DNA of 44,974 nucleotides from IMG/VR virus record IMGVR_UViG_3300011432_000024, positions 1-44,974 of that record. The stretch is one strand, 5' to 3'. The stretch is from a virus. Of this stretch, positions 1 to 41,627 are shown piece by piece. The notes below the pieces were generated by a model. It had not been told where the DNA came from. It saw only the letters and a program-made list of their open reading frames with translations, and ran no database searches. The position numbers and the translations under genes are program-made. Every line of letters begins with the position of its first letter. The stretch's first letter is position 1.

Positions 1-21
1 CAAACGCTCTCGCCAACTCAT
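1..21 (-). CDS. 5' part of a 36-aa gene that crosses the circle junction
   Basis: Leftward ATG at 21-19, overlapping the TGA (20-18) of the nuclease gene above it in an ATGA arrangement. Seven whole codons (MSWRERL) fit between 21 and 1. Continuing at 44974 without a gap gives VAACDYSYEGARRVAL... and a stop at 44885. The in-frame join, the conserved overlap style and the absence of any base missing or extra show that the two window ends are adjacent on the molecule. The product is a short protein of unknown function. It links the early block to the late block in one continuous leftward chain. Confidence 0.75.
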
Positions 22-422
22 ACGCTCGGCTCCTGCGCCCGCCCGGTGAGCGCCGCTTCAATCCAGCGTATCGCTTGCCCGTTCTTCACCTGCTGCGGCA
101 CGACGCGCATGACGCGCCAGCCGAGAATCGCCGCGTGCGCGAACTTCTCGCAGTCCTTCACGTAGCCGGTCCCGCGCGTGTGCCGGCCCTGCGTCCACAC
201 GCCGCCGTCGATCTCCACGGCCAGTTTCTGCGCCACGAACGCGAGGTCGAAGCGCCACCGACGCGGCGGGGCGAAGCGGTGCTCCAGCACGGGCGTCGCC
301 AGCCCATAGACCTGCGATTGGAGCACGAGCGCCTGCTGTGACGCATTGCCCGCACTTGCGCCCAACTGCCGACGTTTCGACACACGCTGCACGCGCTGCG
401 TCCACGCGCCTCTCGCGCTCAC
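18..422 (-). CDS. DUF559/Vsr-like PD-(D/E)XK endonuclease
   Basis: 134 aa from a GTG start that overlaps the previous stop (GTGA at 422-419). The C-terminal half has the pattern of small phage nucleases of the DUF559/very-short-patch-repair type: WRFDLAF (D59), then a hydrophobic strand KLAVEIDGG (E70, D72), then GRHTRGTGYVKDCEK and GWRVMRV. D59 with E70-x-D72 would be the metal-binding core. It is the last gene of the early block and is followed by the 36-aa gene that leads into the late block. Similar proteins sit near replication genes in many temperate phages; the biological substrate is not established here. The N-terminal 35 residues are basic and not recognised. Confidence 0.75.
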   Translation of the reverse strand: MSARGAWTQRVQRVSKRRQLGASAGNASQQALVLQSQVYGLATPVLEHRFAPPRRWRFDLAFVAQKLAVEIDGGVWTQGRHTRGTGYVKDCEKFAHAAILGWRVMRVVPQQVKNGQAIRWIEAALTGRAQEPSV

Positions 423-616
423 GGCTGCACCACCTTCATCGGCGGCGGCTGCTGACACGACGGGCAGTAGACGCGCCCCGCGCAATTCTCCGGCGTGATC
501 CCTTTGGCCCACCACGCGCCCGGCAGAATGTTCGCGCAGTGCCAGGAATGACCGCAGGACGGGCAGGCCGTGAACACGTCAATCGACGCCACGTCGAACA
601 GGCTCGGCTGGTTCAT
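419..616 (-). CDS. small zinc-ribbon protein
   Basis: 65 aa, ATG at 616 overlapping the upstream stop (ATGA) and overlapping the nuclease start downstream (GTGA). Two Cys pairs are visible: CPSCGHSWHC near residues 18-27 and CPSCQQ near 51-56, spaced as in a zinc ribbon. The start MNQPSLFD is typical of short early phage proteins. Binding to DNA or RNA is a guess; no catalytic residues are seen. One of more than ten such proteins in this genome. Confidence 0.7.
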   Translation of the reverse strand: MNQPSLFDVASIDVFTACPSCGHSWHCANILPGAWWAKGITPENCAGRVYCPSCQQPPPMKVVQP

Positions 617-840
617 GCGCCCCTCTGTCCGCAGACGAAGCTCTCGACCTGCTGATACTCCCGACCCCTGCGGCGCTTTCGGCTGTAGGCCGCTTCGTAG
701 CCGTTGCGCCGGCCGAGCCGATAGGCGGTGAGCACGGCGTCCTTGAACGGCAGCGCCGCGAGCCGCTCCAGTAGCCGCCCCTCGAAGTTGCGCGTCCGCG
801 CCTTGCCGCCTTCGCGGCCCCATGCGGCGTGCTGGTTCAC
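613..840 (-). CDS. hypothetical basic protein
   Basis: 75 aa, GTG start at 840 overlapping the upstream TGA (GTGA), end overlapping the next ATG (ATGA). The middle carries LERLAALPFKDAVLTAYRLGRRNGYEAAYSRKRRRGREY, a predicted helical and strongly basic stretch that could contact nucleic acid. I do not recognise the family. Its place directly after two replication-type genes suggests an early role. Confidence 0.6.
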   Translation of the reverse strand: MNQHAAWGREGGKARTRNFEGRLLERLAALPFKDAVLTAYRLGRRNGYEAAYSRKRRRGREYQQVESFVCGQRGA

Positions 841-1199
841 CACAGCCGCACGCCCCGCGTGAACGCCTTCAGCTTCTCCATGAACGCCGCGAGTTTGTCC
901 GGGTCCACCGGCTCCGGCGGCAGGTACCGCGCTCGGTGCGCCGCTTCCATCTGCTCGTGTTTCGCCCGTGCTACTGAGACGCATTCGCTGAACAACTCCG
1001 CTTTCTTCGGGAACCAGTCCGATTTCGTCTCGAGCCGCCGGCACGCCTCGACGAACGTCCGCGTATCAAACTTCTCGTGATCGTCCAGAAACACCTTGAA
1101 GAACGCCGCCCGGTCGTCCTTATGTTCTGGCAGCCGCTCACGAACGGCGATCGCCAATCTGGTCAGGGCGGCGCGGCGTATCGCTTCGTCGTTCGTCAT
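837..1199 (-). CDS. putative replication-associated protein
   Basis: 120 aa from ATG 1199. It overlaps the end of the previous gene by 62 bases, much more than is usual here; no other plausible start was found. Helical throughout, with AFFKVFLDDHEKFDTRTFVEACRRLETKSDWFPKKAELFSEC, a pattern that recalls the helicase-loader/replication P type proteins of temperate phages (a short helical protein with a W-F-P-x-x-x-E-L segment). This is a resemblance only. Position between a probable replication gene and the terminal nuclease supports a replication role. Confidence 0.5.
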   Translation of the reverse strand: MTNDEAIRRAALTRLAIAVRERLPEHKDDRAAFFKVFLDDHEKFDTRTFVEACRRLETKSDWFPKKAELFSECVSVARAKHEQMEAAHRARYLPPEPVDPDKLAAFMEKLKAFTRGVRLW

Positions 1200-1572
1200 A
1201 GACGGCCTCGAGCTCGTGAAGCGCCGCCAGGTCGTCCCTGAACCCGCGCAGGTTGCTTTCGACGGCCGTCGGCCGCAGTCTCGGATCTCTCGCCTGTGGC
1301 AGCCGCGCCGCGTGCCGCCGCGCAATCAACTTCGCCGCCTGTGACACGAACACGCCCACCGAATACCCCGCCTGCTGAATCCAGGCGTCGTCCGTGGCGA
1401 AGAAGTCGGCCATGAGCTCGCGCACGAGGTCGCCGTGCGACTGCCACAGGCCCGCGAGCAGCTTCGCGTCCTTGCCGCCGTTAATCACCGACGCCACACC
1501 GAACAGTTCGCGGTGCAGCCTGTCGAACTCTGTCAACAGTTCGCGCGTCGGCGCTGTCTGTTGTCCTGCCAT
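1138..1572 (-). CDS. putative replication protein (C-terminal organiser-like segment)
   Basis: 144 aa. The start MAGQQT at 1572 is chosen because GGCGG lies 4 bases upstream of it; an upstream in-frame start at 1596 is possible. The segment FFATDDAWIQQAGYSVGVFVSQAAKLIARR looks like the C-terminal motif seen in a number of phage replication and helix-turn-helix initiator proteins, but I cannot assign a family. First gene after a 355-base gap with a possible promoter, so it may begin a separate transcription unit with the genes down to 18. Confidence 0.6.
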   Translation of the reverse strand: MAGQQTAPTRELLTEFDRLHRELFGVASVINGGKDAKLLAGLWQSHGDLVRELMADFFATDDAWIQQAGYSVGVFVSQAAKLIARRHAARLPQARDPRLRPTAVESNLRGFRDDLAALHELEAVYDERRSDTPRRPDQIGDRRS

Positions 1573-1601
1573 GTCGCCGCCTTTCAGTCGATACACCGCG
1601 C

Positions 1602-1635
1602 CCTATACCCCGCGATCTTAGAGATCGCAGGCACC
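1602..1635 (-). promoter_or_regulatory. candidate promoter with palindromic operator
   Basis: On the leftward strand a -10-like TATAGG (1607-1602) lies 17 bases after a weak -35-like CTGCGA. The spacer holds the perfect inverted repeat GCGATCT-CTA-AGATCGC (1628-1612). A palindrome placed between the -35 and -10 is a classic operator position. The rest of the gap, 1636-1927, shows no gene I can support: short frames there lack start signals. Confidence 0.35.
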
Positions 1636-1927
1636 AGCACGCACGCTGAGGCTGCAGTGACCCCGCCAGACAAGTACGCTTGCAGCGTCAACCTCTCGTC
1701 TTAGCCTCACACTGCACGCGCGGTCGCACCGTGAACCGGCTTGGTTCGCCGGCATCGCGTCTGGTCGCGGGTTGACGGCGCGTAGTCAGCGCCCGCTTCA
1801 GCACGAACCGCTCACACCCAGGTGGGCGACACCTTGTAGTCCCGTCGCCCGCATCGGACATCTCTGCGCGTCTCACCGTCCGAGTCGCAGGTCAGCCACG
1901 CGATACCGCGCGCGTGGGCGCGAAGTG

Positions 1928-2569
1928 CTAACCGAAAATATCGTCTGCGGTCGGCGTTGCGGCACGCTCGTGCGGCTTCGCCGTGACCGTCATGGAGGTC
2001 GATAAAACGGCCGCGTCTGGCGGCTTGGTATAGATACTCACCTTGAAGCCCAGCCGCCGCATCTGGTCCCAGTCCACCACCCAGAAGCTCGCGTTCGTCG
2101 TGCTCTGTTCGCGGCAACCACCCGAGCTGATCATCTTCACGATGTCGTCTGTGCGCGCGAGAGCTACCGCGATCAGTTCGCCTTCGCGCTTCGGCTGTGA
2201 CAAGTAGGCGTGACAGGTCAGATAGGGATACAGCCAGCCGCCAGCGGCGTTGATCGCTAGCGTCCGCTTAGCAAACTCCGTATCCGATCCGTTAAAACGT
2301 CGCTTGCGGATCGTGAACGTGCGATACGGGAATCCCGATCGGCTGTCATCCCACTGCACGCGGCTGGCGATCCCCCTGATCCCCTGTTTGCCGTGGATCT
2401 GCCACGCGTCGATACCGGCGAGCGTGTCCAGTTGCTTCGTGAAACCTTCAGCGTTCACGGCCTCGACTGGCATCACGTCTCCGCCGCCGCACCAGCGGCT
2501 CACCTGCGGCCACACGACTCGCTGAAACTCAAACGCGCTATCGCTGAGGTCGGTGCGCCAGTCAGCCAC
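1928..2569 (-). CDS. hypothetical protein beside the methyltransferase
   Basis: 213 aa from a GTG at 2569, chosen because a G-rich GATCGGGGGTG precedes it and it overlaps the methyltransferase stop by only 8 bases; a longer form could start at ATG 2641. Soluble, with the conserved-looking core GIDAWQIHGKQGIRGIASRVQWDD and FAKRTLAINAAGGWLYPYLTCHAYLSQP, and a C-terminus ending PTADDIFG. I do not recognise a named family. Its tight coupling to a DNA methyltransferase makes a nuclease or modification partner worth considering, but no catalytic triad is clear. Confidence 0.65.
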   Translation of the reverse strand: MADWRTDLSDSAFEFQRVVWPQVSRWCGGGDVMPVEAVNAEGFTKQLDTLAGIDAWQIHGKQGIRGIASRVQWDDSRSGFPYRTFTIRKRRFNGSDTEFAKRTLAINAAGGWLYPYLTCHAYLSQPKREGELIAVALARTDDIVKMISSGGCREQSTTNASFWVVDWDQMRRLGFKVSIYTKPPDAAVLSTSMTVTAKPHERAATPTADDIFG

Positions 2570-3749
2570 GGACGCACCCCCGATCGACGCACAGTTCGAC
2601 TTGTTCGGGGTTGACGTCCGCGCCTTCAGAGTGACGGCCAAGCTTCGCCGCCATCACGAGAAATGTGCCGGTCCCAGCGAACGGGTCCACCACCCGCGCA
2701 CCAGGCTCGGACGCGTGCCTAATCAACATCTCTGCAAGTTGGTCCGGCTTCTGCCACGCGTGCAGACGCCCAGAGTCTTGGCGGCCGTCTGGCGCGGACA
2801 TATCGATCACCGAGAATTGCTCTGTCATTAGCGGGCAGTTCAACGGCGGCGCAGACGGCCCCCACACGTAGAAGCACGCCTGCCAATTCAGCTTGTAGGC
2901 ATGCGCCGGCGCAGGGCCGAGGGTGTTGCGGTACGTCCAGACGAGCACCTGGTATCGGCCGTCGAGCCCTTGCGCGCCGAGCACGCGCAGATACGCAGCG
3001 AGTTCGTTGGGGTAGGCACCAGTAAAGATATAGGCGCGGGCGTCAGCCTTCAGGCGCGACAGCGCCAGCGGCAACCAGCCATCAACGAAGGCGTCGATGT
3101 CCGCAATGTCGGTGCTGTACGGCGGGTCCGTCAGCAGCAGATCCACCGAGTTCGGATCGACGCCAGAGAGAAACGTCTCAGCTTCGGCATTGTGGACGAC
3201 GGCGCGCACACCCGAACGCTCTGTCGCTTGCCGCGCCACGTCCGACTGAGCTTCGAGAAACTTCTCTCGCTTAATCGCCGAGCGCAGTTCGTTTCGGCTC
3301 CAACTCTCGGCCTCAGCCCTGTCGAGCCACGCGTCCTGCTCTTGCGTGGACTTAAACCCGGCCACCTCGGCGTGATGACTCCACGAGACATTTAACCGCC
3401 GGCGGTTAGATTCAGAGAACTTCTGCGCGACGTTCGCGGCGTTGACGATGGTCTGGTAGTCGTAACCAGTGGCGTCGATCTCCTGCGCGTACTTCTCGCC
3501 GTACTTGCGCTCACCGAAACGCACCCAGTCCCCCAGCCACCACATGACCCCACCGGCGATCGATCGCAACTGCGCGCCGACGTCGCGCCAGTCGTCGTAT
3601 GCCGTGTCCTCTGGCAGCAAGAGACTCGTCTGCGTCCACGATCCGCCAGCAGACAGCACGCTCGATTGAAGTTCGGTAATTTCGCCGGTGCGTCGGTCGA
3701 CGACTTCAACAGTCGCCAGCGCCGTTGCGTTAGACTTTGGCTTAGCCAT
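2562..3749 (-). CDS. DNA methyltransferase (N4/N6-type) with N-terminal helical domain
   Basis: 395 aa, overlapping both neighbours by 8 bases. The C-terminal half is a type II amino-methyltransferase: catalytic motif DPPY at 208-211, a KP motif at 334-335, and the S-adenosylmethionine-binding DPFAGTGT at 355-362. Catalytic motif before the SAM motif is the beta-class order. Residues 50-160 (DDWRDVGAQLR...GDWVRFGERKYGEKYAQE...SWSHHAEVAGF) form a helical domain often found in phage and plasmid DNA-binding proteins. It would methylate adenine N6 or cytosine N4 in phage DNA, perhaps for protection against restriction. Target site unknown. Confidence 0.85.
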   Translation of the reverse strand: MAKPKSNATALATVEVVDRRTGEITELQSSVLSAGGSWTQTSLLLPEDTAYDDWRDVGAQLRSIAGGVMWWLGDWVRFGERKYGEKYAQEIDATGYDYQTIVNAANVAQKFSESNRRRLNVSWSHHAEVAGFKSTQEQDAWLDRAEAESWSRNELRSAIKREKFLEAQSDVARQATERSGVRAVVHNAEAETFLSGVDPNSVDLLLTDPPYSTDIADIDAFVDGWLPLALSRLKADARAYIFTGAYPNELAAYLRVLGAQGLDGRYQVLVWTYRNTLGPAPAHAYKLNWQACFYVWGPSAPPLNCPLMTEQFSVIDMSAPDGRQDSGRLHAWQKPDQLAEMLIRHASEPGARVVDPFAGTGTFLVMAAKLGRHSEGADVNPEQVELCVDRGCVRG

Positions 3750-4059
3750 GGTTCGCGGGCTCCAATTCCGCGGGCTTGGTTAGGGCGCCGGCAGCCGGTG
3801 ACACGGTTGTCGGTGTCCCGATCTTACCACGGCCGCTGGTGACTTTCGCCTCGTTACTCTCCAAAATTGGCCCACCTTTCGCCTCTACGTGCCATTCGTA
3901 CCAGCCGCGATCGTCTTTGCGGCACACCGCGCCCGCTTCGCGCGCCCACACGAGCGCGGTCTTCTCGCTGATCCCGAACCTCTGCCGCAGTTGCCCGGCG
4001 GTCAGCCAGTGCTGCGTCAGTAACTGCTGCACCCGGAGACGGCGTTCGAGACGGGTCAC
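3742..4059 (-). CDS. small helix-turn-helix protein
   Basis: 105 aa from a GTG at 4059 overlapping the upstream TGA (GTGA). Residues 1-55 read as a winged-helix or HTH unit (RRLRVQQLLTQHWLTAGQLRQRFGISEKTALVWAREAG) followed by an RGWYEWH wing. The C-terminal 45 residues are low complexity. It follows another winged-helix gene. The pair may form a regulator of the early operon or take part in replication initiation. Confidence 0.7.
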   Translation of the reverse strand: MTRLERRLRVQQLLTQHWLTAGQLRQRFGISEKTALVWAREAGAVCRKDDRGWYEWHVEAKGGPILESNEAKVTSGRGKIGTPTTVSPAAGALTKPAELEPANHG

Positions 4060-4325
4060 GGCTTTGCGCCTTTCAGCGTCACCCGCCACAGCCCGCCCTG
4101 CACGCGCTGGACGGTGATGGGATAGCCCGCCAGCACCAACTCGTTCACGCGGCCCATCGCCCGCAAGCCGCCGACGTGCTTCACCAGTTCGACATTCGTG
4201 GCCGAGCCGTGCTGCTGCAGATAGGCCAGCACCTTGTCGCGGTTCGACGCCTGCCGCGCCTTCTCGACCGCCACTGGCGCGAGCACGACCGCGTCGCTGA
4301 ACATCGGCAGCACGCCCGGCCTCAT
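4056..4325 (-). CDS. winged-helix DNA-binding protein
   Basis: 89 aa, ATGA overlap with the gene above and GTGA with the gene below. The segment NRDKVLAYLQQHGSATNVELVKHVGGLRAMGRVNELVLAGYPITVQRVQGGLWRVTL is a clear winged helix: three helices with a recognition helix around VGGLRAMGRVNEL, then a beta wing GYPITVQRV-GGLWRVTL. Such domains are common in phage replication and regulatory proteins. Neighbours are zinc-binding peptides and a second HTH protein. Confidence 0.75.
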   Translation of the reverse strand: MRPGVLPMFSDAVVLAPVAVEKARQASNRDKVLAYLQQHGSATNVELVKHVGGLRAMGRVNELVLAGYPITVQRVQGGLWRVTLKGAKP

Positions 4326-4570
4326 GCGGTCCGCCAGCCCGGCCGCTTGGCCGCGTGCGCCCGCGCCAGGATCGCCTCGATGACATGCGCGGGCAGATCC
4401 GGTTGCTGCTGCCACTCGCGGACAAGTGGCGTGGATTTGACCCGCGGCGCCGTCCCGCGCTGCTGATGGCTGCGTCCGTGCTTGCGACACCACGTCGCGC
4501 GCTCGTCAATCGGAATCTTGCAGACGCGGCAGTGCGCCTTGACGTTCGTCAACAGCGGCTTCCACGGCAT
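4322..4570 (-). CDS. small zinc-binding protein
   Basis: 82 aa; its ATG shares a base with the upstream TAA (TAATG). A CRVC pair at residues 14-17 and CRKHGRSHQQRG at 28-39 could coordinate one zinc. The C-terminal half is basic and helical (LPAHVIEAILARAHAAKRP). No family recognised. Confidence 0.6.
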   Translation of the reverse strand: MPWKPLLTNVKAHCRVCKIPIDERATWCRKHGRSHQQRGTAPRVKSTPLVREWQQQPDLPAHVIEAILARAHAAKRPGWRTA

Positions 4571-4695
4571 TACTTCGCCCTCGCCGGCGGCAGCGCGACG
4601 ACGGAATGCCCGCAGTGCTCGCAGGTCAGATGCGTCACGCCGCCGCGACGGTCCCAATAGCGTTCGTGTCGGCAGAACCAGCGCCAGAGGTTCAT
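4570..4695 (-). CDS. 41-aa zinc-finger peptide
   Basis: ATG at 4695 overlaps the TGA above it (ATGA) and the TAA at 4572-4570 overlaps the next ATG. The peptide MNLWRWFCRHERYWDRR...CEHCGHSVVALP contains C-R-H and CEHCGH, enough for one zinc site, and WFCRHxxY resembles short zinc ribbons that occur beside phage replication genes. Its place in an unbroken chain of overlapping genes is the main support. Confidence 0.6.
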   Translation of the reverse strand: MNLWRWFCRHERYWDRRGGVTHLTCEHCGHSVVALPPARAK

Positions 4696-4937
4696 CGCGC
4701 CCCCAGTCCGATCACTGTCGCGGCGTGCCCAGCCAGCGCCGCCTCGCGCGTGGCGTAGCGCCGCAACTCGCCGTCATACCGGCCGCCGAGGATCTGCGTC
4801 TCGTACTGGCCGTTGAAGTAGACCGTGCTGACGCGGCAGTCGGTGAGTTCCGTCACCGCGATCTGCTCCCACAGGTGCCGCCAGTCGCGGGCGCGAGCTC
4901 GCATCCGCGCTCGGACGTGCTGTAAGGCGGTTCTCAT
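4692..4937 (-). CDS. hypothetical protein
   Basis: 81 aa, overlapping both neighbours by 4 bases. Basic N-terminal helix (QHVRARMRARARDWRHLWEQ) then a beta-rich part, VSTVYFNGQYETQILGGRYDGELRRYATREAALAGHAATV. The second half looks like a small domain with conserved GQYET-GGRYDGE; I do not recognise it. Confidence 0.6.
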   Translation of the reverse strand: MRTALQHVRARMRARARDWRHLWEQIAVTELTDCRVSTVYFNGQYETQILGGRYDGELRRYATREAALAGHAATVIGLGAR

Positions 4938-5314
4938 CGTGTGCTCTCCCATCGGCGCAGGACCGCGCCGGTCTTGTCGTACTGTTCCAGGTGCAGCGTC
5001 CGCTCCGCGTTGCCGAAGATGTGCAGCCGCCGCGTGACGTGCCGCTCGTCGTGACAGGATTTGCACAGCAGGCAGATGTTCTGCTCTGACTCGGCCCCGC
5101 CGATGCTCCGCGGCACGACGTGGTGGTGCTCCGCGCGTTCAGGCACCGCCGCCAGCGTCTGCGTCGTCTTGCGCCCGCACGCCCGGCAGCAGCCGCCATC
5201 CCGCGTCGTCACGTAGCGGCACAGCGCCTGCCACGCCTTCACCTTCGCCCGCTTGTCCGCCGTGGACGACTGCAAGCGCGTGGGCTGGTCGTGCTTAAAG
5301 TTAGTGACGTGCAT
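4934..5314 (-). CDS. HNH endonuclease
   Basis: 126 aa from an ATG at 5314 that shares a base with the upstream TGA (TGATG). Classic HNH layout: first zinc pair CRACG at 43-47, AEHHHVVPRS at 62-70 (catalytic His), IGGAESEQNICLLCKSCHDERH at 71-92 with the Asn, the second Cys pair and the final His. Zinc-stabilised beta-beta-alpha-metal nuclease. It sits between zinc-ribbon and helical genes in the early block, not beside the terminase, so it is more likely a recombination or homing-type nuclease than a packaging partner. Confidence 0.85.
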   Translation of the reverse strand: MHVTNFKHDQPTRLQSSTADKRAKVKAWQALCRYVTTRDGGCCRACGRKTTQTLAAVPERAEHHHVVPRSIGGAESEQNICLLCKSCHDERHVTRRLHIFGNAERTLHLEQYDKTGAVLRRWESTR

Positions 5315-5475
5315 CAGAACGGCTCCATGCCATCGCCGGGGTCGCCGTCGGCCTGTGGCTGCGCGGCCGGCTTCGGGGGCGTCACGTCGGCTTCGTCGTC
5401 GTCCACGGGCGGCGGGTCGCACCACTCGCAGCCGTCCTTCCCGATGAACGCTCCGCAGTAGTCGCAGCGGTTCAT
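5314..5475 (-). CDS. zinc-ribbon protein with SSB-like acidic tail
   Basis: 53 aa. CDYCG at 4-8 and CEWCD at 16-20 form a small zinc site. The remainder is Asp/Glu/Pro-rich and ends DGDPGDGMEPF, an acidic tail closing in a hydrophobic residue, Pro and Phe. That is the pattern of the C-terminal tip of bacterial single-stranded DNA-binding proteins (D-D-D-I-P-F). It lies 9 bases after the ERF gene, whose product has a similar end. I infer a link to ssDNA metabolism; the zinc site alone is not diagnostic. Confidence 0.65.
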   Translation of the reverse strand: MNRCDYCGAFIGKDGCEWCDPPPVDDDEADVTPPKPAAQPQADGDPGDGMEPF

Positions 5476-5484
5476 GGCAGCACC

Positions 5485-6243
5485 TCAAAACGGTATCGAC
5501 GATTCGTCCGGCGCTTCGACGCGGTAGTCGTCCACCGGCAGTTCCGGCGCGTCGTCGTCCGCGCCGCGCTTCTTCAGGCCCATCAGGTTCACGAAGCGGC
5601 CCTTGTGCTCCAGCGTGGCGACCACGGGCACCTTCGCGTTCCAGAGTGTCGTCGCGTTCTGGCCGATGGCCGGGTTGATGGTGGTGGCCGTCACGTTGTC
5701 GCTGAACGTCACCGCCCACTGCGTCTTGCCGGTGCTGGTCTTGTTCACCGCGACGTTCGTGATGGTCTGGCCCACCGAGGCGCTGCGTGGAGCCGTGGCT
5801 GACGGGGCGTGACCCGCGGCACCGTTCGTGTGCTTCGCGTGGCCCACGGCCGCGTTCGCGTCGTCATCTTCCGGCGCGACGCCGACCACCGCGCCGAGCG
5901 CGTAGCGCCGCGCGTAAGTGATCGCCGATCCGACACCCTGCGCGTCCGCCTTGGAGATGGGAACCGCGAGCGTGTCCGTCATCCACTGGCCCGACGTGTG
6001 CAGCAGCGTCGTCTCAATCTCGACGGCCCACGCCGACTCGCCGATGCTCGTCAGCCGCGGGAACTGCACGACCGAGAGGCCGTGCTTCGACAGCGGGCCG
6101 CGGCACGCATCCCACACCGACGCGAGGTCGGCGTAGCGGCTGCGGAAGTGGGGATTCTCGCTGTCCTTCTTCGCGCCCGCGACTTCGCCCTGCGCCTTCG
6201 CCATCGCCGCCGCGAGTTCGTTGATGTTCTCTGAGCGTGTCAC
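5485..6243 (-). CDS. erf: ERF-family single-strand annealing protein
   Basis: 252 aa from a GTG at 6243 (GTGA overlap). The first 130 residues carry the ERF signature: SENPHFRSRYADLASVWDACRGPLSKHGLSVVQ at 28-60 and QGVGSAITYARRYALGAVVGVAPEDDDAN at 102-130. ERF proteins form rings that anneal complementary single strands and act in phage recombination and circularisation. After a linker (130-160) there is a beta-rich second domain (SVGQTITNVAVNKTSTGKTQWAV...VATLEHKGRFVNL) that may be an OB-like fold. The C-terminus EAPDESSIPF resembles an SSB tip. Upstream is a zinc-ribbon gene, downstream another. Confidence 0.93.
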   Translation of the reverse strand: MTRSENINELAAAMAKAQGEVAGAKKDSENPHFRSRYADLASVWDACRGPLSKHGLSVVQFPRLTSIGESAWAVEIETTLLHTSGQWMTDTLAVPISKADAQGVGSAITYARRYALGAVVGVAPEDDDANAAVGHAKHTNGAAGHAPSATAPRSASVGQTITNVAVNKTSTGKTQWAVTFSDNVTATTINPAIGQNATTLWNAKVPVVATLEHKGRFVNLMGLKKRGADDDAPELPVDDYRVEAPDESSIPF

Positions 6244-7617: not shown

Positions 7618-7979
7618 GCGCGTCTCCGGTCGTTGGCCGTGAGCACGGTGTCAATGCGGATGACCGCGCATTCGGCCGCGAGCGCGATCACGAGTTCGCG
7701 CTGGAAGTCCGCGCCGAGGCTCCACAACTTGGCGAAGTTGGCCGTTTCAATGCCCGCGATCCAGCGCGACAGCGCGGACTGATCGGCGTAGCCCATGCTC
7801 GATGCCGCGGCTTTCTTTTCGATCCCGGCCGCGACGAGCGCGCGTTCAATCGAGCGGCCAATCACGCGGCAAAACTCGGCCAGCGCAAGTGGCTTGCGGT
7901 CGCCTTCGCCCCGAAGTGCGCGCATCGCTAGCATCTTGCGTGGACGCTCGCTGACGTCGTTCGCTACCGTGGAGCCCAT
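7614..7979 (-). CDS. helix-turn-helix protein, CII-like position
   Basis: 121 aa from ATG 7979; an in-frame ATG at 8030 and a later one at MLAMRALRG are alternatives. The part EFCRVIGRSIERALVAAGIEKKAAASSMGYADQSALSRWIAGIETANFAKLWSLGADFQRELVIALA reads as an atypical HTH in which ADQSALSRWIAG is the recognition region. Position: third or fourth gene behind the cro-like gene, where lambdoid phages keep cII. Whether it activates lysogeny promoters is not shown. Confidence 0.6.
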   Translation of the reverse strand: MGSTVANDVSERPRKMLAMRALRGEGDRKPLALAEFCRVIGRSIERALVAAGIEKKAAASSMGYADQSALSRWIAGIETANFAKLWSLGADFQRELVIALAAECAVIRIDTVLTANDRRRA

Positions 7980-8289: not shown

Positions 8290-8819
8290 TTCGCCGGGAG
8301 AGAGGACAGAACCAGGCGGACATCGAAGCCGAGCGCCCGCGCGGCGGTAGACACCGCCTTGATTGTGCGGAAGCCGCCAGAGAACCAGATCGAGACCAAC
8401 GCACGGCTGCACCCGATGCGGCTTGCCAGTTCCATTTCAGTGACACCGAGGGACTGGCACAGGGTGCGAATGTCGTTCGTGATCGCAGCGATCGCATCGC
8501 GCGCCCCGCCGACATCAACGAACGTCCTGCTGCGTGGCGCAGCCTTCGCCGGAGCGACGCCATAGGGCACCTTGTTCGCCTGGTGCCACGCGCGGTGGCA
8601 CTTGCGGCACAGCCACCGAATCGCCAGCGGCTGCCCGTAGTCGTCGTGATGGGCTTCCACACCGCGAGCCTTTCCGCAGACTTCGCAGGGCTGTTTGACG
8701 AGTTCGCCTCGTCGGATGGCCGCTCGCGTGGCGCGAGTGGCGACACGCCGGGCGTCATCCTGTATGTACACCGTCGTAAACGGGAACAGTCGGCCCGTTG
8801 CCTCTTTCCGGCGGCTCAC
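8247..8819 (-). CDS. HNH-like zinc module fused to XRE-type helix-turn-helix
   Basis: 190 aa, ATGA overlap with the cro-like gene. Residues 45-79 form a four-Cys plus His module: CEVCGK (45-50), EAHHDDYGQPL (55-65), WLCRKCHRAWH (69-79), the pattern of phage HNH-like proteins that keep the zinc site. Residues 115-170 are a helix-turn-helix: LCQSLGVTEMELASRIGCSRALVSIWFSGGFRTIKAVSTAARALG. Probably a DNA-binding regulator with a structural zinc knuckle; nuclease activity is possible but not shown. It is the second gene of the leftward early operon. Confidence 0.75.
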   Translation of the reverse strand: MSRRKEATGRLFPFTTVYIQDDARRVATRATRAAIRRGELVKQPCEVCGKARGVEAHHDDYGQPLAIRWLCRKCHRAWHQANKVPYGVAPAKAAPRSRTFVDVGGARDAIAAITNDIRTLCQSLGVTEMELASRIGCSRALVSIWFSGGFRTIKAVSTAARALGFDVRLVLSSLPANHSTASSDEQAVSL

Positions 8820-9058
8820 CGCGCCACCGCCGCTTCTGGCTCCGCGGAGGGCACGATGTCTGCGGGCGATGCCTTCAGCGCCCGCGCGATTCGTGCGACC
8901 TCGCTGTTGTTTGGAGTTCGATACGCGTTCTCGATGTCCATGTACCGCCCGTACGGGAGGTCGGCCTTAATGGCCGTGTCGCGCTGGCTGATGCCGCGGT
9001 CCACGCGGAGCAGGCGTAACCGCTTCGTGATGGCTTTCATGAATCGAGAGTATTGCAT
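8816..9058 (-). CDS. Cro-like XRE repressor
   Basis: 80 aa from ATG 9058; MKAITKRLRLLRVDRG at 9040 is an equally good start and would fit the family's usual N-terminus. Helix-turn-helix: LRLLRVDRGISQRDTAIKADLPYGRYMDIENAYRTPNNSEVARIARALKASPADIV. First gene of the leftward early operon and divergent from the repressor gene at 9130, the standard cro/cI arrangement. No clear ribosome-binding site precedes either start. Confidence 0.8.
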   Translation of the reverse strand: MQYSRFMKAITKRLRLLRVDRGISQRDTAIKADLPYGRYMDIENAYRTPNNSEVARIARALKASPADIVPSAEPEAAVAR

Positions 9059-10365: not shown

Positions 10366-11439
10366 GTGGGGGAGAAGGGGCCGGGCGTCCATCGGCACGG
10401 GGCGGGCTGGCGGGCCGTCGTCAGCCAAGGCCGAGACCGGCCCCCGCTCCGTCGGACGTTCCCGCTCGAGACGAGCGCGGCCGAGATGCAGAACTGGCGG
10501 CGGGACGCGCAGGCGAGCCACCGTGTCAACCGGAAGCGCCGCGCCACCCGCGGGGCGTTCTCGAGCGATGCCCGCCGCTATCTGGCCGCCGTGACGGCCA
10601 TGCCGTCCTATAAGGAGCGCGTCTACCAGATCGGCCTGTGGGTCACGGAGTTTGGCGATCGCCAGCGGGACAGCCTACAGGCGTCTGACATCCGCGCCGT
10701 GCGCGACCGCTGGCTGACGCAGCCGCGGAAGCGGGACGACCCGCGGCCGTTATCCCCGCACACCGTCAACCTGCGCCTACGCGCCCTCAGCAACCTCTAC
10801 CGCGTGCTGGACGGCCGGCGGGCTGAGAACCCGGTGCGCGAGGTGGACGAAGCCCCAGAGCCCGACGCGCGGCCCCGGGCGCTGTCCTACGAGGTCATCG
10901 AACAAGTACTGGCGGCCTTGCCAGACCGCGGGCGGGCGGGGAAGGGCGACACGCGGCCAAAGTGGTCGCAGACGCGCATCCGGCTCCGCTGTCTCGCCTT
11001 CTGCCAGATCACCCCGAAACAGCTGAAGACGATCATGCCCGCCGACTTGGACCTGACCCGTGAACGGTTGCGTCTGCCGGCGAGAGGGAAGGGGAAGGGC
11101 TCCGAGGCCATCTGGGTGCCGCTGGTGCCCGCCGCCGTGGAGGCGTTTCGGGACCTCGTGGCCAATGGGCTGTGCGGGCCGTTCTCGTGGGGCTCGCTGT
11201 CGAAAAGCTGGCATCGGGCCGTGAAGGCCGCCGGGCTGCCGCGCATGACGCCCTACCAGCTTCGGCACACGTTCGGCACGCTCATCTACCGGGCCACGCG
11301 GAGCCGGGACGCCGTCCAGCAGTTGATGCAACACGCCTCGTGGAAGACCAGCCGCCGGTACACGCTGGACGCGGAGGACGACGTCCGGGCCGCCCATGCC
11401 GAGACGGTCGCTGACGCGCTGGCGAAGCTCACGAAGTGA
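10366..11439 (+). CDS. int: tyrosine recombinase / integrase
   Basis: 357 aa from a GTG directly after the lipoprotein TAG. Arm-binding region at the N-terminus, core-binding helices about 65-165 (FSSDARRYLAAVTAMPSYKERVYQIG...SPHTVNLRLRALSNLYRVL), catalytic domain 170-345. Visible catalytic residues: beta-hairpin Lys (GKGKGSEAIWVPL), R300 in YQLRHTFGTLIY, H323 in QHAS and Tyr332 in SRRYT. The first Arg is missing: the box-I segment reads CQITPKQL with Thr216 where Arg is expected, and the usual His of HxxR is Tyr297 (a tolerated change). It would integrate the phage at a tRNA-Arg gene. Confidence 0.9.
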   Translation: MGEKGPGVHRHGAGWRAVVSQGRDRPPLRRTFPLETSAAEMQNWRRDAQASHRVNRKRRATRGAFSSDARRYLAAVTAMPSYKERVYQIGLWVTEFGDRQRDSLQASDIRAVRDRWLTQPRKRDDPRPLSPHTVNLRLRALSNLYRVLDGRRAENPVREVDEAPEPDARPRALSYEVIEQVLAALPDRGRAGKGDTRPKWSQTRIRLRCLAFCQITPKQLKTIMPADLDLTRERLRLPARGKGKGSEAIWVPLVPAAVEAFRDLVANGLCGPFSWGSLSKSWHRAVKAAGLPRMTPYQLRHTFGTLIYRATRSRDAVQQLMQHASWKTSRRYTLDAEDDVRAAHAETVADALAKLTK

Positions 11440-11485
11440 CTTTCGCTTTCCCTTCAAGAATCTTCGCCCAGCCTGTCGATTCTAC

Positions 11486-11514
11486 TTGCGCTTACATGCT
11501 TGCGCTTGTATAGT
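11486..11514 (+). promoter_or_regulatory. rightward promoter for a leaderless transcript
   Basis: TTGCGC (11486-11491), a 17-base spacer, TATAGT (11509-11514): the best sigma-70-like promoter seen in the window. Transcription would start about 11521, next to the ATG at 11522, and no Shine-Dalgarno is present, so the message is probably leaderless. CTTGCGCTT occurs twice (11485-11493, 11499-11507), 14 bases apart, which could be a regulator site. The gap 11440-11521 holds nothing else. Confidence 0.65.
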
Positions 11515-11521
11515 CTCTCTC

Positions 11522-11728
11522 ATGACGAACGCGAAGATGTGCGACGGTAGTTACGGCGACGGCGTTCAGAATACATACCGCTTCCCGGCTGACGGCGTTC
11601 GTAAGGGCCGCGTCACCGCACAATGCCCGGTCTGTGGACGCCGCGTCGCGCTCGTCACCCTATACGCCGACGCTAACAAGGGGCGCGGCCTTGGACGCCA
11701 CGACGCGCCCGCCGCCTCCCAGCAGTAA
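11522..11728 (+). CDS. small zinc-binding protein
   Basis: 68 aa from the ATG just after the promoter. MTNAKMCDGSYGDGVQNTYRFPADGVRKGRVTAQCPVCGRRVALVT has Cys7 and a CPVC pair at 35-38, a partial zinc ribbon, and a Gly/His tail. First gene of a rightward operon of short genes up to 12898. Confidence 0.65.
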   Translation: MTNAKMCDGSYGDGVQNTYRFPADGVRKGRVTAQCPVCGRRVALVTLYADANKGRGLGRHDAPAASQQ

Positions 11729-11743
11729 CAGGAGCACAGGACC

Positions 11744-11950
11744 ATGACGCCACTTGATTCCGGCTGCCGCGACTGCAAGCACAGCCCCGCCTACCAGACC
11801 AGACAGCGCCAACTCGGCCGATCGTTCGTGCCGGGCTGGCGTCAGGCGTGCGAGAAGCACGCGCCCGAGACGAACAGGTTTCACGAGACGCAGCCGCTGC
11901 CGCACGCATGGCCGGACGAACTGCTGAACCGATGGAAGGCCGCGCGATGA
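11744..11950 (+). CDS. hypothetical small protein
   Basis: 68 aa with AGGAGC upstream. CRDCKHSPAYQTRQRQLGRSFVPGWRQACEKHAPETNRF contains CRDC and CEKH, enough for a zinc site. Ends in ATGA with the methyltransferase-like gene, so translation is coupled. Confidence 0.65.
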   Translation: MTPLDSGCRDCKHSPAYQTRQRQLGRSFVPGWRQACEKHAPETNRFHETQPLPHAWPDELLNRWKAAR

Positions 11951-12498
11951 GAGTCCTCGTCGCGTGCGAGTTCTCTGGCGTCGTGCGGGATGCATTCAGG
12001 GCGCAGGGCCATGACGCATGGTCGTGCGACCTGCTACCGACCGAGACGCCGGGGCCACATATCCGCGATGACGCCCGCGTGCATCTGCGCGACGGCTGGG
12101 ATCTGATGATCGCCCATCCGCCATGCACGCATCTGGCGGTGAGCGGGGCGCGGTGGTTCGCGGCGAAGCAGGAGGAGCAGGCGCTGGCGCTCGACTTCGT
12201 GCGGACGCTACTAGACGCGCCGATCTCGCATATCGCGCTGGAGAATCCTGTCAGCGTCATCAGCAGCCGCATACGCAGGCCTGACCAGATCGTGCAGCCG
12301 TGGATGTTCGGCCACGGCGAGGTCAAGGCGACGTGCCTCTGGCTGAAGGGCCTGCCGCCGCTCCGGCCGACACAACTCGTGGACGGGCGCCACGCCAGAG
12401 TCCACCGTGAGCCGCCCTCGCCTGACCGATGGAAAAAGCGCAGCCGAACCTATCAGGGCATCGCCGACGCGATGGCCCAACAGTGGGGCACTCTATGA
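11947..12498 (+). CDS. C5-methyltransferase-like protein (short)
   Basis: 183 aa, overlapping both neighbours by 4 bases. It has the order of cytosine-C5 methylases: SAM loop VLVACEFSGVVRDAF (3-17), acidic D28 in SCDLL, the PPC catalytic loop HPPCTHLAVSG (57-67, Cys60), and ENPV (99-102) at motif VI. It is about half the length of typical enzymes and has no room for a normal target recognition domain. Such short proteins are common in phages. It may modify phage DNA in the lysogen or use another substrate. Leu/Trp-rich C-terminus WLKGLPPLRPTQ is typical of this phage family. Confidence 0.75.
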   Translation: MRVLVACEFSGVVRDAFRAQGHDAWSCDLLPTETPGPHIRDDARVHLRDGWDLMIAHPPCTHLAVSGARWFAAKQEEQALALDFVRTLLDAPISHIALENPVSVISSRIRRPDQIVQPWMFGHGEVKATCLWLKGLPPLRPTQLVDGRHARVHREPPSPDRWKKRSRTYQGIADAMAQQWGTL

Positions 12499-12743
12499 AG
12501 CCGAAGAACGAAGCCGCCGCGACCTTGGGCCGCGCCAGGTGCTTCGCCTGCAAGCACGCCATTCCAGGCAAGCCGCGCCGCGTCATAACCGCTGACCGGG
12601 CGCAAATGGTCTACGTCGGGCCATGCTGCTATCAGCGCGTCCGCCGCGCCGTCGAAGGGTATCAGCCCGCACTCGGTGGTCCGCGGCTCGTCATGCCGAC
12701 GCCCGAAGAACTCGTCAATCACGCGCTGGAGTATCTACGATGA
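12495..12743 (+). CDS. small zinc-binding protein
   Basis: 82 aa, ATGA overlap at both ends. CFACKHAIPGKPRRVITADRAQMVYVGPCCYQRVRRAVEG has CFAC and a later CC, a compact metal site. The C-terminus MPTPEELVNHALEYLR is a helix. No family recognised. Confidence 0.6.
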   Translation: MKPKNEAAATLGRARCFACKHAIPGKPRRVITADRAQMVYVGPCCYQRVRRAVEGYQPALGGPRLVMPTPEELVNHALEYLR

Positions 12744-12898
12744 CCGCCAAGAAGAACCCCGCCGCCCAAGCAATGGGCCGCGCCCGCTGGGCGAAGGTGA
12801 CGAAGGAGCAGCGCACCGCCCATGCCGCGAAGATGCTGACCGCCCGCTGGGGCAAGACCCGCAAGCCGAAGGCGAAGAAGCCCGCTGGGACGACCTAA
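12740..12898 (+). CDS. small basic Lys/Ala-rich protein
   Basis: 52 aa, ATGA overlap. QAMGRARWAKVTKEQRTAHAAKMLTARWGKTRKPKAKKP: two repeats ending in ARW, then a Lys/Pro tail like that of histone H1. Similar peptides (GRARWAKVTKEQR...AARW) are widespread in bacteria. DNA or RNA binding is likely from charge alone. Last gene before attP. Confidence 0.55.
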   Translation: MTAKKNPAAQAMGRARWAKVTKEQRTAHAAKMLTARWGKTRKPKAKKPAGTT

Positions 12899-12950
12899 TG
12901 GAACGACACTGGTTGGACTCTCGCAGATTTGCTTAGACATTTTTGGACCG

Positions 12951-13173
12951 TGGGACGACGCGCAACCAGGGGCCGTCGTCGCTGCCTGCCGAGCGGAGCC
13001 CCTGCCGAACACGCGAAATGTGGCGTATTTACTGAGGTTTACGATGACACAGCAGGATGCGCGCCCGGGAGGTCTCGAACCTCCGACCCTCGGCTTAGAA
13101 GGCCGATGCTCCAGCACGAACACGCCTGTTTGCAACAACTTATCAGTGAGGACATCTTCCTGGGACGACGCGC
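12951..13173. other. probable attP region with flanking 13-bp direct repeats
   Basis: The gap 12899-13208 between two rightward genes has no credible gene. Its centre is the tRNA fragment at 13058-13112. On either side TGGGACGACGCGC occurs in the same orientation (12951-12963 and 13161-13173), placed like integrase arm sites about 95 and 49 bases from the core edges. Together they suggest a phage attachment site. The integrase gene ends 1.5 kb away, farther than usual. Confidence 0.6.
13058..13112 (-). tRNA. 3' fragment of tRNA-Arg(TCT), attP core
   Basis: Read leftward: GGAGCA, an anticodon arm TCGGC-CTTCTAA-GCCGA (anticodon TCT), a variable loop, a T-arm GGAGG-TTCGAGA-CCTCC, then CGGGCGC as the 3' acceptor strand and a G discriminator. 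The 5' acceptor strand GCGCCCG and the D-stem are absent upstream, so this is about 55 bases of the 3' end and not a working gene. Phages that integrate into tRNA genes carry exactly such a 3' portion so that the gene is rebuilt at the junction. Confidence 0.8.
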
Positions 13174-13208
13174 GCCACGCGATGTCGTGGGATAGACTAG
13201 GCGACCCC

Positions 13209-32988: not shown

Positions 32989-33882
32989 TTACGCCGCCAC
33001 GGCCTTGATCACCGCGAAGTTCACCACGAGCACCGCATTGAGCGCGTCGGTCGCGTGGACGTTCGTGATCACGATCTTGCAGGACCCGGCCGCGACACCC
33101 TTCACGCTCACAATCGGCGTGCCCGCGCCCGCGTACGTCGTGCTCACGCAGACCACATCGGTCGCCGCGAGCAGCGTATTGGTGAGCTGGAACACTTCCT
33201 CAGCCGCCGCGGCGGTCGTCAGCGCGACGGTCGTGATCTGACCGCAGGGCTTCGACAGCACCACGGTAGTCGTCGCGTCCGTCGCCTGTGTCTGCGCCCC
33301 GCCCGCGCCGGTCGCGTAGCCGCTGAGCACCGTCGCGCTCGTCGACTGCAGGCCCGCCGTCGCCGTCACCAGCCCGGCGCTGGACACGGACACCGCCTGC
33401 ACCGCCTCGTTCAGCATGATCAGGCTGTTTGTGGTCGCGTCCGACTTGATCGTCCACGTGTCGCCCGCGTTGTCGCCGTTGTCCGCGTCGAGAATCAGCG
33501 AGGCGTCGCCCGCTTCCGTGCCGATGACCGAGATGGAGCCCGCCGCGAAGTTGATCGGCGCGTCCGTGGTGGCCGCGTTCAGGAGTTGCAGGGTGGCCGA
33601 CGCCGCGAGCGCCGAGACGGACCAACGATCCGCCGTGTCGTCGCCGTCATCCGCCGCCAGCGTGATCGTGCCGTTGTTGCCTTCGTTGCCGTTGAAGGTG
33701 ATCGAGCCCGAGCCCTTCGGCACGAGCTTTAGGCTGATGTTCGTGTCGTCGCCGACCGCCGTGATCGTCGGCACGCCACTCGCGGCGGCTCCGTCGATCT
33801 GAATCGCATTGGCGAGTTCGTCCTTGGCTCCGGCCACAATTGAGCCGAAGTGGGACGACGCGCCGTCATTCCGGTAATTCAT
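32989..33882 (-). CDS. beta-rich fibre or decoration protein
   Basis: 297 aa. Repeats such as GDDTNISLKLVPKGSGSITFNGNEGNNGTITLAADDGDDTADRWSV and SISVIGTEAGDASLILDADNGDNAGDTWTIKSD follow a GD-x-ADRW/TW pattern, typical of beta-helix fibres in phage heads or tails. C-terminal part has TTVALTTAAAAEEVFQLTNTLLAATDVVCVSTTYAG. Directly downstream of the capsid gene, after a hairpin. Confidence 0.65.
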   Translation of the reverse strand: MNYRNDGASSHFGSIVAGAKDELANAIQIDGAAASGVPTITAVGDDTNISLKLVPKGSGSITFNGNEGNNGTITLAADDGDDTADRWSVSALAASATLQLLNAATTDAPINFAAGSISVIGTEAGDASLILDADNGDNAGDTWTIKSDATTNSLIMLNEAVQAVSVSSAGLVTATAGLQSTSATVLSGYATGAGGAQTQATDATTTVVLSKPCGQITTVALTTAAAAEEVFQLTNTLLAATDVVCVSTTYAGAGTPIVSVKGVAAGSCKIVITNVHATDALNAVLVVNFAVIKAVAA

Positions 33883-35642: not shown

Positions 35643-35864
35643 CTAGTCGCGCTGGCCGCCGCGCCATTGCCACCACTGCACCAACAGCTCGGCCGCCCCG
35701 TCTTTGTCGATGACCTGTGCGCCGATTTCGCCGTTCCCGTGATTGATCGACAACAGGACGACGCTACCGAGCCTGTCGAGGATGTCCACGGCTTCCGCCG
35801 CATAGGCGATCTGGCTGCCGATCTGCCGCAGAGAACACACGCGGCTTGACGTGGGGACGCTCAC
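35643..35864 (-). CDS. hypothetical late protein
   Basis: 73 aa, ATGA overlap. Helical with QIGSQIAYAAEAVDILDRLGSVVLLSINHGNGEIGAQVIDKDGAAELLVQWWQWRGGQRD. No motif recognised. It is the last gene before the structured leader and ends 255 bases upstream of the decoration gene. Confidence 0.55.
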   Translation of the reverse strand: MSVPTSSRVCSLRQIGSQIAYAAEAVDILDRLGSVVLLSINHGNGEIGAQVIDKDGAAELLVQWWQWRGGQRD

Positions 35865-36499
35865 TTGCGCTCGACCGGCACGCGGTCCACGACCTGCCGA
35901 TACTCCGTCTCGATGAACCCGCCGAGATGCCCCGCCGTGCGCTCGAGCTCGTCCTTCTCGTCCTGCGTGTCCACCGTCTTCTGCTCGCGCTCCAGCGCCG
36001 CCATCGCCGCCGCCCGCCGCTTCTTCTCCGACTGCATGCTGCGCTCGATGCGGTCGCCCTTCGCCTTCTGGATCGCGTTGAACACCGAGGACGGCATCTT
36101 CATCAGCACTTCCTTGCCGTTCGCGCCGACATGCACGCGGTCGTTGATGAACGACATGCCGGGGGCGTCGTTCGCCGCCATGTCCGTCGGGGCCACCGGC
36201 TCCCAGCCCGCTTCGACCGCTTCGGCGTACCGCGAGCCGTCGCTGTGCATGTCGAGATAGACCGTGCGCACGACCATCGGCTCGTCCTGCTTGCGGAGCC
36301 GGTACTCGCGGGGCTTGGCGCGGTTGGGTTCGCCCGTGCGGATACGGCGCTGGCGAATCGCGCGGGTGTCAATCACGATGGCGTCATCGCCCTGTGCGAC
36401 GACGGAGGCGGCTTCGCCTTTGGGGCGGCCGGGGTCCTTCTTCGGGCGTCCGCCGCGATGCTTGGCTGATGCGGGCGTGACCGTCTCGTCGTTACTCAT
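35861..36499 (-). CDS. hypothetical basic protein, possible scaffold/head maturation partner
   Basis: 212 aa, 8-base overlap with the scaffold gene. N-terminal GRPKKDPGRPKGE looks like two AT-hooks. The middle is mixed: MVVRTVYLDMHSDGSRYAEAVEAGWEPVAPTDMAAND and VLMKMPSSVFNAIQKAKGDRIERSMQSEKKRRAAAMAALEREQKTVDTQDEKDELERTAG, a long charged helix. Co-encoded with the scaffold, so a DNA- or capsid-associated head protein is likely. Confidence 0.6.
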   Translation of the reverse strand: MSNDETVTPASAKHRGGRPKKDPGRPKGEAASVVAQGDDAIVIDTRAIRQRRIRTGEPNRAKPREYRLRKQDEPMVVRTVYLDMHSDGSRYAEAVEAGWEPVAPTDMAANDAPGMSFINDRVHVGANGKEVLMKMPSSVFNAIQKAKGDRIERSMQSEKKRRAAAMAALEREQKTVDTQDEKDELERTAGHLGGFIETEYRQVVDRVPVERK

Positions 36500-37526
36500 C
36501 GCTGTCCTCCAGAATGTAGCCGCCGCCCTTGGTCACCTTCACCGTGCCCATCGCCGCCACGTTCGCCGCGTGCTGCTTCTGCGACATGCCCACCGCCCGC
36601 GCCGCAATCTGCTCCGCGCGTGAGAGCGACAACGGAGCCGTGGGCCGCGTCGGCGCTTCCGTAAACTGCGGACGCGGGACAGCCACCGGTGGCGGGGGAG
36701 GGGGAGCCGCCGCCGGAGCCGTCACCGCGCCCGTAGACCGTTGCAACTGCTGCTGTCTGAGGTAATGCACGCCCGCGGCGCCGACAATCGCGCCCAGCAC
36801 GCCCTGCGGGGTCGCCGCCTGTTCTGGCGTCATCGTGGCGAGGGCTTCCTGCGCGACTTCAGGCGGCACGCCGTACTGCTGCGCCACCTGATACGCCTGC
36901 GCGGTCAAGTGCTGCGCTTTTTCGTTCGTCCGTTCCTGGTGGAGCGGGGCCAGTGCCGCTTCGACGGTCGACCGAACCTGCTTCGTGATGCGCGTGTGGA
37001 TCTTCTTCGCCGCCTCCAAGTCCCACTGCTGCGTGGAGACGTTCACCAGCCCGTACTCGCTGGCGATCTGCGTCAGTTCGTCGTCGCTCGGGCCGTCCGG
37101 CTTGGCCGGGGCGGCTGGCGTTGTTGCCTGCGGCTGCACGCGGCCGTCGAGCTCGGCCAGAATCTGCTGCTGGCGGTCCAGCGGCAACTGCTGGAGCTGC
37201 TGTTGGAACCGCTTGGCGAACGCGGCCACTTCTGCGGCGGCTTGCTTCGTCTGCTGTTCCGATTGCTTGGCTTCACGCACCTTGGCGCGGAGCCGTGTGA
37301 CTTCGCCGTAGATGCCACGCTCCTGCTCATCGCGGGGCTCAGGCAGGGCGGGCTCGTCCGGCTCCACTGGGGCCGCCACAGCGGGCGTGGCGACAGGTTC
37401 TGGCGTCGTGGCGGGCGTGGCGACAGGTTCGGGGGCGGGGGCTGGGACATCGGCCGCCGTCGTCCCCGCGGGTTCGTCCGGGCCGTCCAGCACGAACGCG
37501 CCGGGCGTCAGGATGTCATCACTCAT
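36492..37526 (-). CDS. scaffolding protein
   Basis: 344 aa, ATGA overlap. Acidic, Pro/Ala-rich N-terminus with EPVATPA repeats (28-60); a long charged helix with Gln-rich coiled coil (VTRLRAKVREAKQSEQQTKQAAAEVAAFAKRFQQQLQQLPLDRQQQILAELDGR); a second helical part and a Pro-rich stretch; a C-terminus RAEQIAARAVGMSQKQHAANVAAM. This shape and the position just before the capsid gene group are those of phage scaffolding proteins. No protease motif is seen. Confidence 0.75.
   Translation of the reverse strand: MSDDILTPGAFVLDGPDEPAGTTAADVPAPAPEPVATPATTPEPVATPAVAAPVEPDEPALPEPRDEQERGIYGEVTRLRAKVREAKQSEQQTKQAAAEVAAFAKRFQQQLQQLPLDRQQQILAELDGRVQPQATTPAAPAKPDGPSDDELTQIASEYGLVNVSTQQWDLEAAKKIHTRITKQVRSTVEAALAPLHQERTNEKAQHLTAQAYQVAQQYGVPPEVAQEALATMTPEQAATPQGVLGAIVGAAGVHYLRQQQLQRSTGAVTAPAAAPPPPPPVAVPRPQFTEAPTRPTAPLSLSRAEQIAARAVGMSQKQHAANVAAMGTVKVTKGGGYILEDSDE
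37381..37430. repeat. tandem 20-base repeat in the scaffold gene
   Basis: The 20-mer GCGGGCGTGGCGACAGGTTC occurs at 37381-37400 and 37411-37430, with 10 bases between. It encodes the duplicated EPVATPA stretch of the acidic linker. A recent slippage duplication in a disordered region; no other function implied. Confidence 0.7.
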
Positions 37527-37681
37527 GCTTTCGGCTCCTTCAGCGCGGCCTTCGCCTGCGCCAAGACGTCACGCGCGTTCCGTAAGATCGCCGTGCCCGG
37601 ATGGTCGCCGGGCTTGCCCGCGATCACGCGCTCCAAGTCCACGATGGCGAACGTGATGCGCTCGGTCAGGGTGGACGTCAT
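37523..37681 (-). CDS. 52-aa hypothetical protein
   Basis: ATG at 37681, ATGA overlaps at both ends. MTSTLTERITFAIVDLERVIAGKPGDHPGTAILRNARDVLAQAKAALKEPKA: two helices around a Gly/Pro turn. It lies between the co-chaperonin and scaffold genes. Unassigned. Confidence 0.6.
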   Translation of the reverse strand: MTSTLTERITFAIVDLERVIAGKPGDHPGTAILRNARDVLAQAKAALKEPKA

Positions 37682-38734: not shown

Positions 38735-38802
38735 TCGTCACCGTCGTTAAAGAACACGATCAGGCAGATAATGGCTATCATCGCCAGCAGGATCATGCTC
38801 AC
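38731..38802 (-). CDS. 23-aa single-pass membrane peptide
   Basis: GTG at 38802 in a GTGA overlap and TGA at 38733-38731 overlapping the next ATG. VSMILLAMIAIICLIVFFNDGDE: one transmembrane segment and an acidic end. Shorter than most annotated genes but integrated in an unbroken chain of overlaps, which a random frame would not show. Function unknown. Confidence 0.45.
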   Translation of the reverse strand: MSMILLAMIAIICLIVFFNDGDE

Positions 38803-39539: not shown

Positions 39540-39571
39540 GACCCACGATTCCTTCGCGGCGCGGAACTGCC

Positions 39572-41599: not shown

Positions 41600-41627
41600 C
41601 GCTGGTGGGAGCGACCGTTGCGCGGTC

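Follow-up and report, generated by a model that had tools for sequence, protein, structure and literature searches.

The window analysed in this work, a virus record of 44,974 bases, is linear and has no terminal repeats. A fragment of a tRNA-Arg(TCT) gene is located in the gap at 12899–13208, where no gene was found by the codon-usage gene model and where the neighbouring genes end at 12898 and start at 13209. One side of the fragment encodes the terminase large subunit, an SU10-type portal, and a capsid protein. The opposite side encodes an ERF annealing protein, a CI/Cro-like repressor, and a tyrosine integrase. The repressor is a Cro/CI-like HTH protein (8816–9040, minus strand) that matches phrog_3, phrog_8, and others, which is consistent with a temperate life cycle. 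The tyrosine integrase (10366–11439, plus strand) consists of 357 aa and matches phrog_1 with an E-value of 7e-27. The spacing between the integrase gene and the fragment is 1.6 kb (11440–12898) and is occupied by a putative DNA methyltransferase (11947–12498, plus strand, phrog_757) and small ORFs; the fragments of the integrase relatives lie within about 250–460 bp of their integrase genes.

The tRNA-Arg(TCT) fragment

The fragment is encoded on the minus strand, where positions 13059–13111 read GAGCATCGGCCTTCTAAGCCGAGGGTCGGAGGTTCGAGACCTCCCGGGCGCGC. The Rfam tRNA model matches positions 13060–13123 with a score of 37.7 bits (E-value of 5.7e-6). The anticodon loop CTTCTAA is located at 13095–13101 with the anticodon TCT at 13099–13097, and it is enclosed by the anticodon stem TCGGC/GCCGA at 13106–13102 and 13094–13090. 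The sequence is complete through the T arm and along the 3' acceptor strand up to the discriminator G. It lacks the 5' acceptor strand and most of the D arm, and ARAGORN identified no full-length tRNA either in the window or in a second virus record of the same phage (L026). The encoded CCA is also missing from the phage tRNA half (GCGCGCAT versus GCGCGCCA).

The original prediction had described the last 55 bases of a tRNA-Arg(TCT) gene, complete from the anticodon arm to the discriminator but without the 5' half, in an otherwise gene-free gap. The Rfam match and the TCT anticodon confirm the identity of the tRNA, and the arms, the missing 5' half, and the empty gap are as described. The length differs slightly, as the exact match to a bacterial gene covers 53 bases, which is close to the 55 bases claimed.

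Host match

A 49-base pattern from the fragment was matched in one of 84,980 bacterial and archaeal species genomes, which is the Acidobacteria MAG FW602_bin.51 (L002). The tRNA-Arg(TCT) gene of this MAG is complete at 7810–7885 of L002 and encodes the CCA. The phage and FW602_bin.51 are identical at 53 of 53 bases, which begin on the D-stem side of the anticodon arm and end one base beyond the discriminator, and these bases (13059–13111, minus strand) form the putative attP common core. Among the 193 genomes of the class, no genome besides FW602_bin.51 carries the core within two mismatches. The class also contains relatives of two phage proteins. The terminase has a relative at 38% identity (E-value of 1e-93) on a contig that also encodes a portal relative, and the integrase has relatives with E-values down to 1.6e-55. 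The top integrase hits among 50,697 phage records are only 24–30% identical across most of their length.

It had been proposed that the fragment predicts the chromosomal target and thereby the host, and the genome search returned exactly such a tRNA-Arg(TCT) gene. The proposed check also included an adjacent phage with attL and attR, and this part did not follow. No phage adjoins the FW602_bin.51 tRNA gene, and the 7.8 kb beyond its 3' end reads as ordinary bacterial genes (identities judged from translations). Within the extent of its contig, the site is unoccupied. Scans of viral contigs with either attP flank returned no lysogen of this phage, and the exact 45-base tRNA 3' end has no match in viral contigs.

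The host is most likely an Acidobacteria lineage near FW602_bin.51, because the exact core is present in only one of the roughly 85,000 genomes searched. The fragment could still be an attP whose host is an uncultured lineage other than that of FW602_bin.51, where the 53-bp identity reflects a conserved tRNA. This would be compatible with a MAG that is partial (2.8 Mb) and without a related prophage, with the missing lysogen, and with most lineages having no genome in the collection. We regard it as unlikely, though worth keeping in mind. The exact match in a single genome indicates that the tRNA core sequence is not generally conserved, and the integrase and terminase relatives are located in the class of FW602_bin.51.

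Closed phage genome

The second virus record L026 was obtained from another sample. It contains positions 35674–44974 of the window at 100% identity and positions 1–5656 at 99.98% identity. Positions 5657–8176 of L026 form a stretch of 2,520 bp that bridges position 44974 of the window to position 1 and that is missing from the window. By these overlaps, the phage genome is closed or circularly permuted with a predicted length of about 47.5 kb.

The window might alternatively be an integrated prophage, where the fragment is attL or attR and the DNA on one side of it belongs to the host. The linear record without a terminal repeat is in favour of this reading. Since L026 joins both window ends into a circle, the fragment is internal to the phage genome and would be attP rather than attL or attR. 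Phage modules are also present on both sides, with the integrase module and the repressor on one side and the terminase, portal, and capsid on the other. In addition, a homolog of the window gene at 13.9 kb is located near the integrase gene in two relatives, L030 and L060. The prophage reading has next to no probability in our assessment.

Integrase relatives and their tRNA halves

The relatives of the integrase were collected from the genomes of the class of FW602_bin.51 and from viral contigs. The search of the viral contigs with the single integrase sequence returned no relatives, and the search with an alignment built with the genome relatives returned 14. The tRNA halves were identified by scanning for an anticodon arm and a T arm, by eye where needed. 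A tRNA 3' half was identified near the 3' end of the integrase gene in 13 relatives from viral contigs and class genomes, and most of these halves are tRNA-Arg.

The closest relative, L052, has an integrase that is 56% identical to that of the window and carries an Arg(CCT) half. Arg(CCT) halves are also present in L056 and L062. Arg(CCG) halves are present in L053/L054 and L057, and Met(CAT) halves are present in L061 and L065. Among the genome loci, Arg(TCT) halves are present in L006 and L069, an Arg(TCG) half in L011, a Glu(TTC) half in L005, and an Asp(GTC) half in L068. L030 carries an Arg(TCG) half in a gap that was predicted by synteny, as homologs of the window genes at 13.9–14.5 kb adjoin its integrase gene; this half was read by eye and was given no score by Rfam. 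No tRNA half was recognised in L055, L058, and L059, so the association between integrase and tRNA is not universal. The aligned cores of the relatives share tRNA sequence from the anticodon loop onward and little ahead of the loop.

Related prophages that are integrated elsewhere had been named as a finding that would speak against the predicted site. The relatives do use other tRNA genes, which is elsewhere in a trivial sense only.

The halves of the relatives also bear on the possibility that the phage once carried a tRNA gene for translation, of which the fragment would be a decaying remnant and no attachment site. Many phages carry tRNA genes, and the matches in the phage collection are mostly tRNA-Arg genes of large phages. 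However, the window carries only a 3' half. This half is undecayed and identical to one host gene across 53 bases, and the integrase relatives carry comparable halves of different tRNAs near their integrase genes. A decaying tRNA gene is highly improbable on these findings.

A pair of intact and displaced tRNA sequences was identified in G092, a genome from the class of FW602_bin.51. Its contig C7 (L049/L048) carries an intact tRNA-Arg(TCT) gene at 7777–7853 and a displaced 3' half at 70795–70845. The two are identical over 51 bp that start just ahead of the anticodon loop, and they are 63 kb apart. Just outside the displaced half is the remnant of an integrase, which is interrupted by a single in-frame stop and is 37% identical to that of the window; being outside the 63 kb interval, it need not mark that interval as its own element. 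A third copy of the tRNA-Arg(TCT) 3' end is present on the same contig at 15840–15887 with 94% identity. The three copies (7806, 15840, and 70795) suggest that a single tRNA gene has received nested or tandem elements.

Proposed attachment site and mechanism

The findings in this work support the fragment as the attP of a temperate tailed phage, as had been proposed. The integrase of this phage would recombine attP with a host tRNA-Arg(TCT) gene, in an Acidobacteria lineage near FW602_bin.51, by exchange at the anticodon loop, and the tRNA gene would be restored. We assign a probability of about 0.94 to this reading. It draws on the 53-bp identity, the closed genome, the integrase with a predicted lambda-Int-like fold, the halves of the relatives including that of L030, and the pair in G092. 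The missing lysogen, the missing CCA, the integrase gene at a distance of 1.6 kb, and the replaced catalytic Arg I count against it.

Under the attP reading, the strands would be exchanged in or beside the anticodon loop, which is the putative crossover position. At one junction, the 5' half from the host would meet the 3' half from the phage, and the tRNA gene would thereby be restored. The other junction would be marked by the displaced host 3' half. An unusual detail is the CCA, which is encoded in the host gene but not in the phage half; the rebuilt tRNA would therefore depend on a CCA-adding enzyme. Much as in lambda-type systems, the two 13-mers would probably position the complex by acting as integrase arm sites. 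We infer that this phage can lysogenise an FW602-like host.

Flanking direct repeats

The 13-mer TGGGACGACGCGC is present on both sides of the core in the same orientation, with the left copy at 12951–12963 and the right copy at 13161–13173 (both plus strand). This pair, which had been reported in the original prediction, is beyond chance, as a flanking repeat of 13-mer length was found in none of 2,000 dinucleotide shuffles of the region. Both copies are candidate integrase arm sites. This role is plausible at about even odds, because the closest relative lacks such repeats and the motif varies among relatives.

The 13-mers may instead be operators of a regulator or leftovers of a duplicated sequence, while the fragment is an attP all the same. 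A third exact copy is located at 33851–33863 within the reading frame of a structural gene, where 0.04 exact copies are expected per window, and the 13-mer is therefore not restricted to the attP site. No flanking repeat was found at the tRNA fragment of L052. These two findings fit a role other than arm sites. On the other side are the shared orientation around the core and the result of the shuffles. Direct repeats are also present on both sides of the tRNA fragments of L057 and L061, with sequences other than those of the window, and the modelled N-terminal sheet and helix of the integrase resemble those of arm-binding integrases. L005 matches 11 of the 13 bases beside its tRNA-Glu fragment, which likewise favours arm sites. 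A role other than arm sites falls somewhat short of an even chance.

The match in L005 (G186:C45) is GCGTCGTCCCA, which is located immediately 5' of the tRNA-Glu half at 2686 and is the sole exact copy in that 50 kb contig. The 13-mer was also considered as an arm motif of the whole family. This was rejected, as the exact 11-base part is present beside the fragment only in L005 and is absent from most relatives.

The integrase

The integrase of the window has core-binding and catalytic domains. Of the Tyr nucleophile and the RKHRH pentad of tyrosine recombinases, it retains Tyr332, His323, Arg300, and Lys242. Arg I is replaced by Thr216 (FCQITPKQ) and the first His is replaced by Tyr297. The AF2 model of the integrase has a mean pLDDT of 88.6, and Foldseek aligned it to the full-length lambda integrase over 366 alignment columns with 15% identity. 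Residues 8–57 of the model form three strands and a helix ahead of the core-binding domain, and this predicted sheet and helix is a candidate arm-binding domain. No Pfam arm-binding domain was matched.

Arg240 is located two residues before the beta-hairpin Lys242 (R-x-K). In the CTnDOT integrase, the substitute Arg is also located two residues ahead of the Lys. That integrase is reported to lack Arg I and to use another downstream Arg (PMC8138268). The integrase of the window is similar to IntCTnDOT-type integrases (PMC8138268) in the missing Arg I and in the availability of a downstream Arg, which here is the R-x-K at the hairpin Lys. Membership in the IntCTnDOT subgroup is not supported, as the CTnDOT-type arm-binding or N-terminal Pfam models matched none of the 12 aligned family members at E-values up to 1. 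Literature searches on Acidobacteria prophage att sites and on phage integrases without Arg I returned nothing closer than PMC8138268.

The Arg I position was compared among 23 integrases. It is Arg in 12 integrases and is Thr, Ala, Pro, or Asp in 10 relatives, in addition to the Thr of the window. R-x-K at the hairpin was read by eye in all 11 integrases without Arg I and in three of the 12 with Arg I (L010, L014, and L023, as PRG-K), the latter count holding when the motif is used to align the hairpin. The three PRG-K sequences speak against the reading that all relatives with Arg I lack the hairpin Arg. The members without Arg I are not resolved as a single clade in the tree of the 23 integrases.

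These sequences may represent a largely Acidobacteria-linked integrase group in which Arg I was replaced, the Arg two residues before the hairpin Lys compensates as reported for the CTnDOT integrase, and most members target the anticodon loops of tRNA-Arg genes. This grouping could equally well prove right or wrong. The activity of the integrase of the window would depend on such a compensation, as its Arg I is replaced.

Comparison with known systems

Exchange at the anticodon loop, where the host 5' half and the phage 3' half rebuild the gene, has been reported for Islander elements (PMC4383910) and for the attP of mycobacteriophages (PMC10865867). This exchange region corresponds to Islander subsite A (PMC4383910). 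The proposed attP shares a tyrosine integrase, a tRNA 3' half in attP, and a core of tens of bases with Islander (PMC4383910) and with Boilgate and Omega (PMC10865867). It also shares with them the putative anticodon-loop exchange, the restoration of the tRNA at one junction, and the candidate arm sites around the core. The core of 53 bases is longer than the usual 30–45 bases in mycobacteriophages (PMC10865867). Unlike these systems, the window has 1.6 kb with several genes between the integrase gene and attP, a half without CCA, an Acidobacteria host as predicted, and a replaced Arg I. Lambda integrase aligns over its full length with the integrase of the window, which differs in its tRNA target and in the replacement of Arg I.

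The tRNA-dependent lysogeny of Fionnbharth and Gaia likewise employs a tyrosine integrase at the anticodon loop (PMC10865867). However, only about 8–10 bp are common to those phages and attB, the tRNA is not rebuilt, and the phages supply an entire tRNA gene of their own (PMC10865867). The 53-base half in the window reaches the discriminator and would restore the gene, and the window encodes no entire tRNA. The core of 53 bases and the absence of any ARAGORN tRNA in the window and in L026 speak against tRNA-dependent lysogeny for this phage.

The mechanism of such an attP is well known and ordinary, and the value of the finding is in the host link and the integrase variant. An environmental phage gains a precise and testable Acidobacteria host and insertion site. 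To our knowledge, few temperate phages of Acidobacteria have been characterised. The relatives provide a small catalogue of att sites within the lineage and might be turned into integration tools for bacteria in which genetic engineering is difficult. The replacement of Arg I provides a second place where the relocation of catalytic residues in tyrosine recombinases can be studied.

A different arrangement was observed in some relatives. L060 carries a tRNA-Arg(TCG) 5' half at 2578–2620, directly after the integrase gene and on the same strand. The genome loci L010, L014, L017, and L023 carry an integrase gene followed by a complete tRNA gene with its 5' end towards the integrase gene. These arrangements suggest that some relatives may restore the 5' half of the tRNA gene instead.
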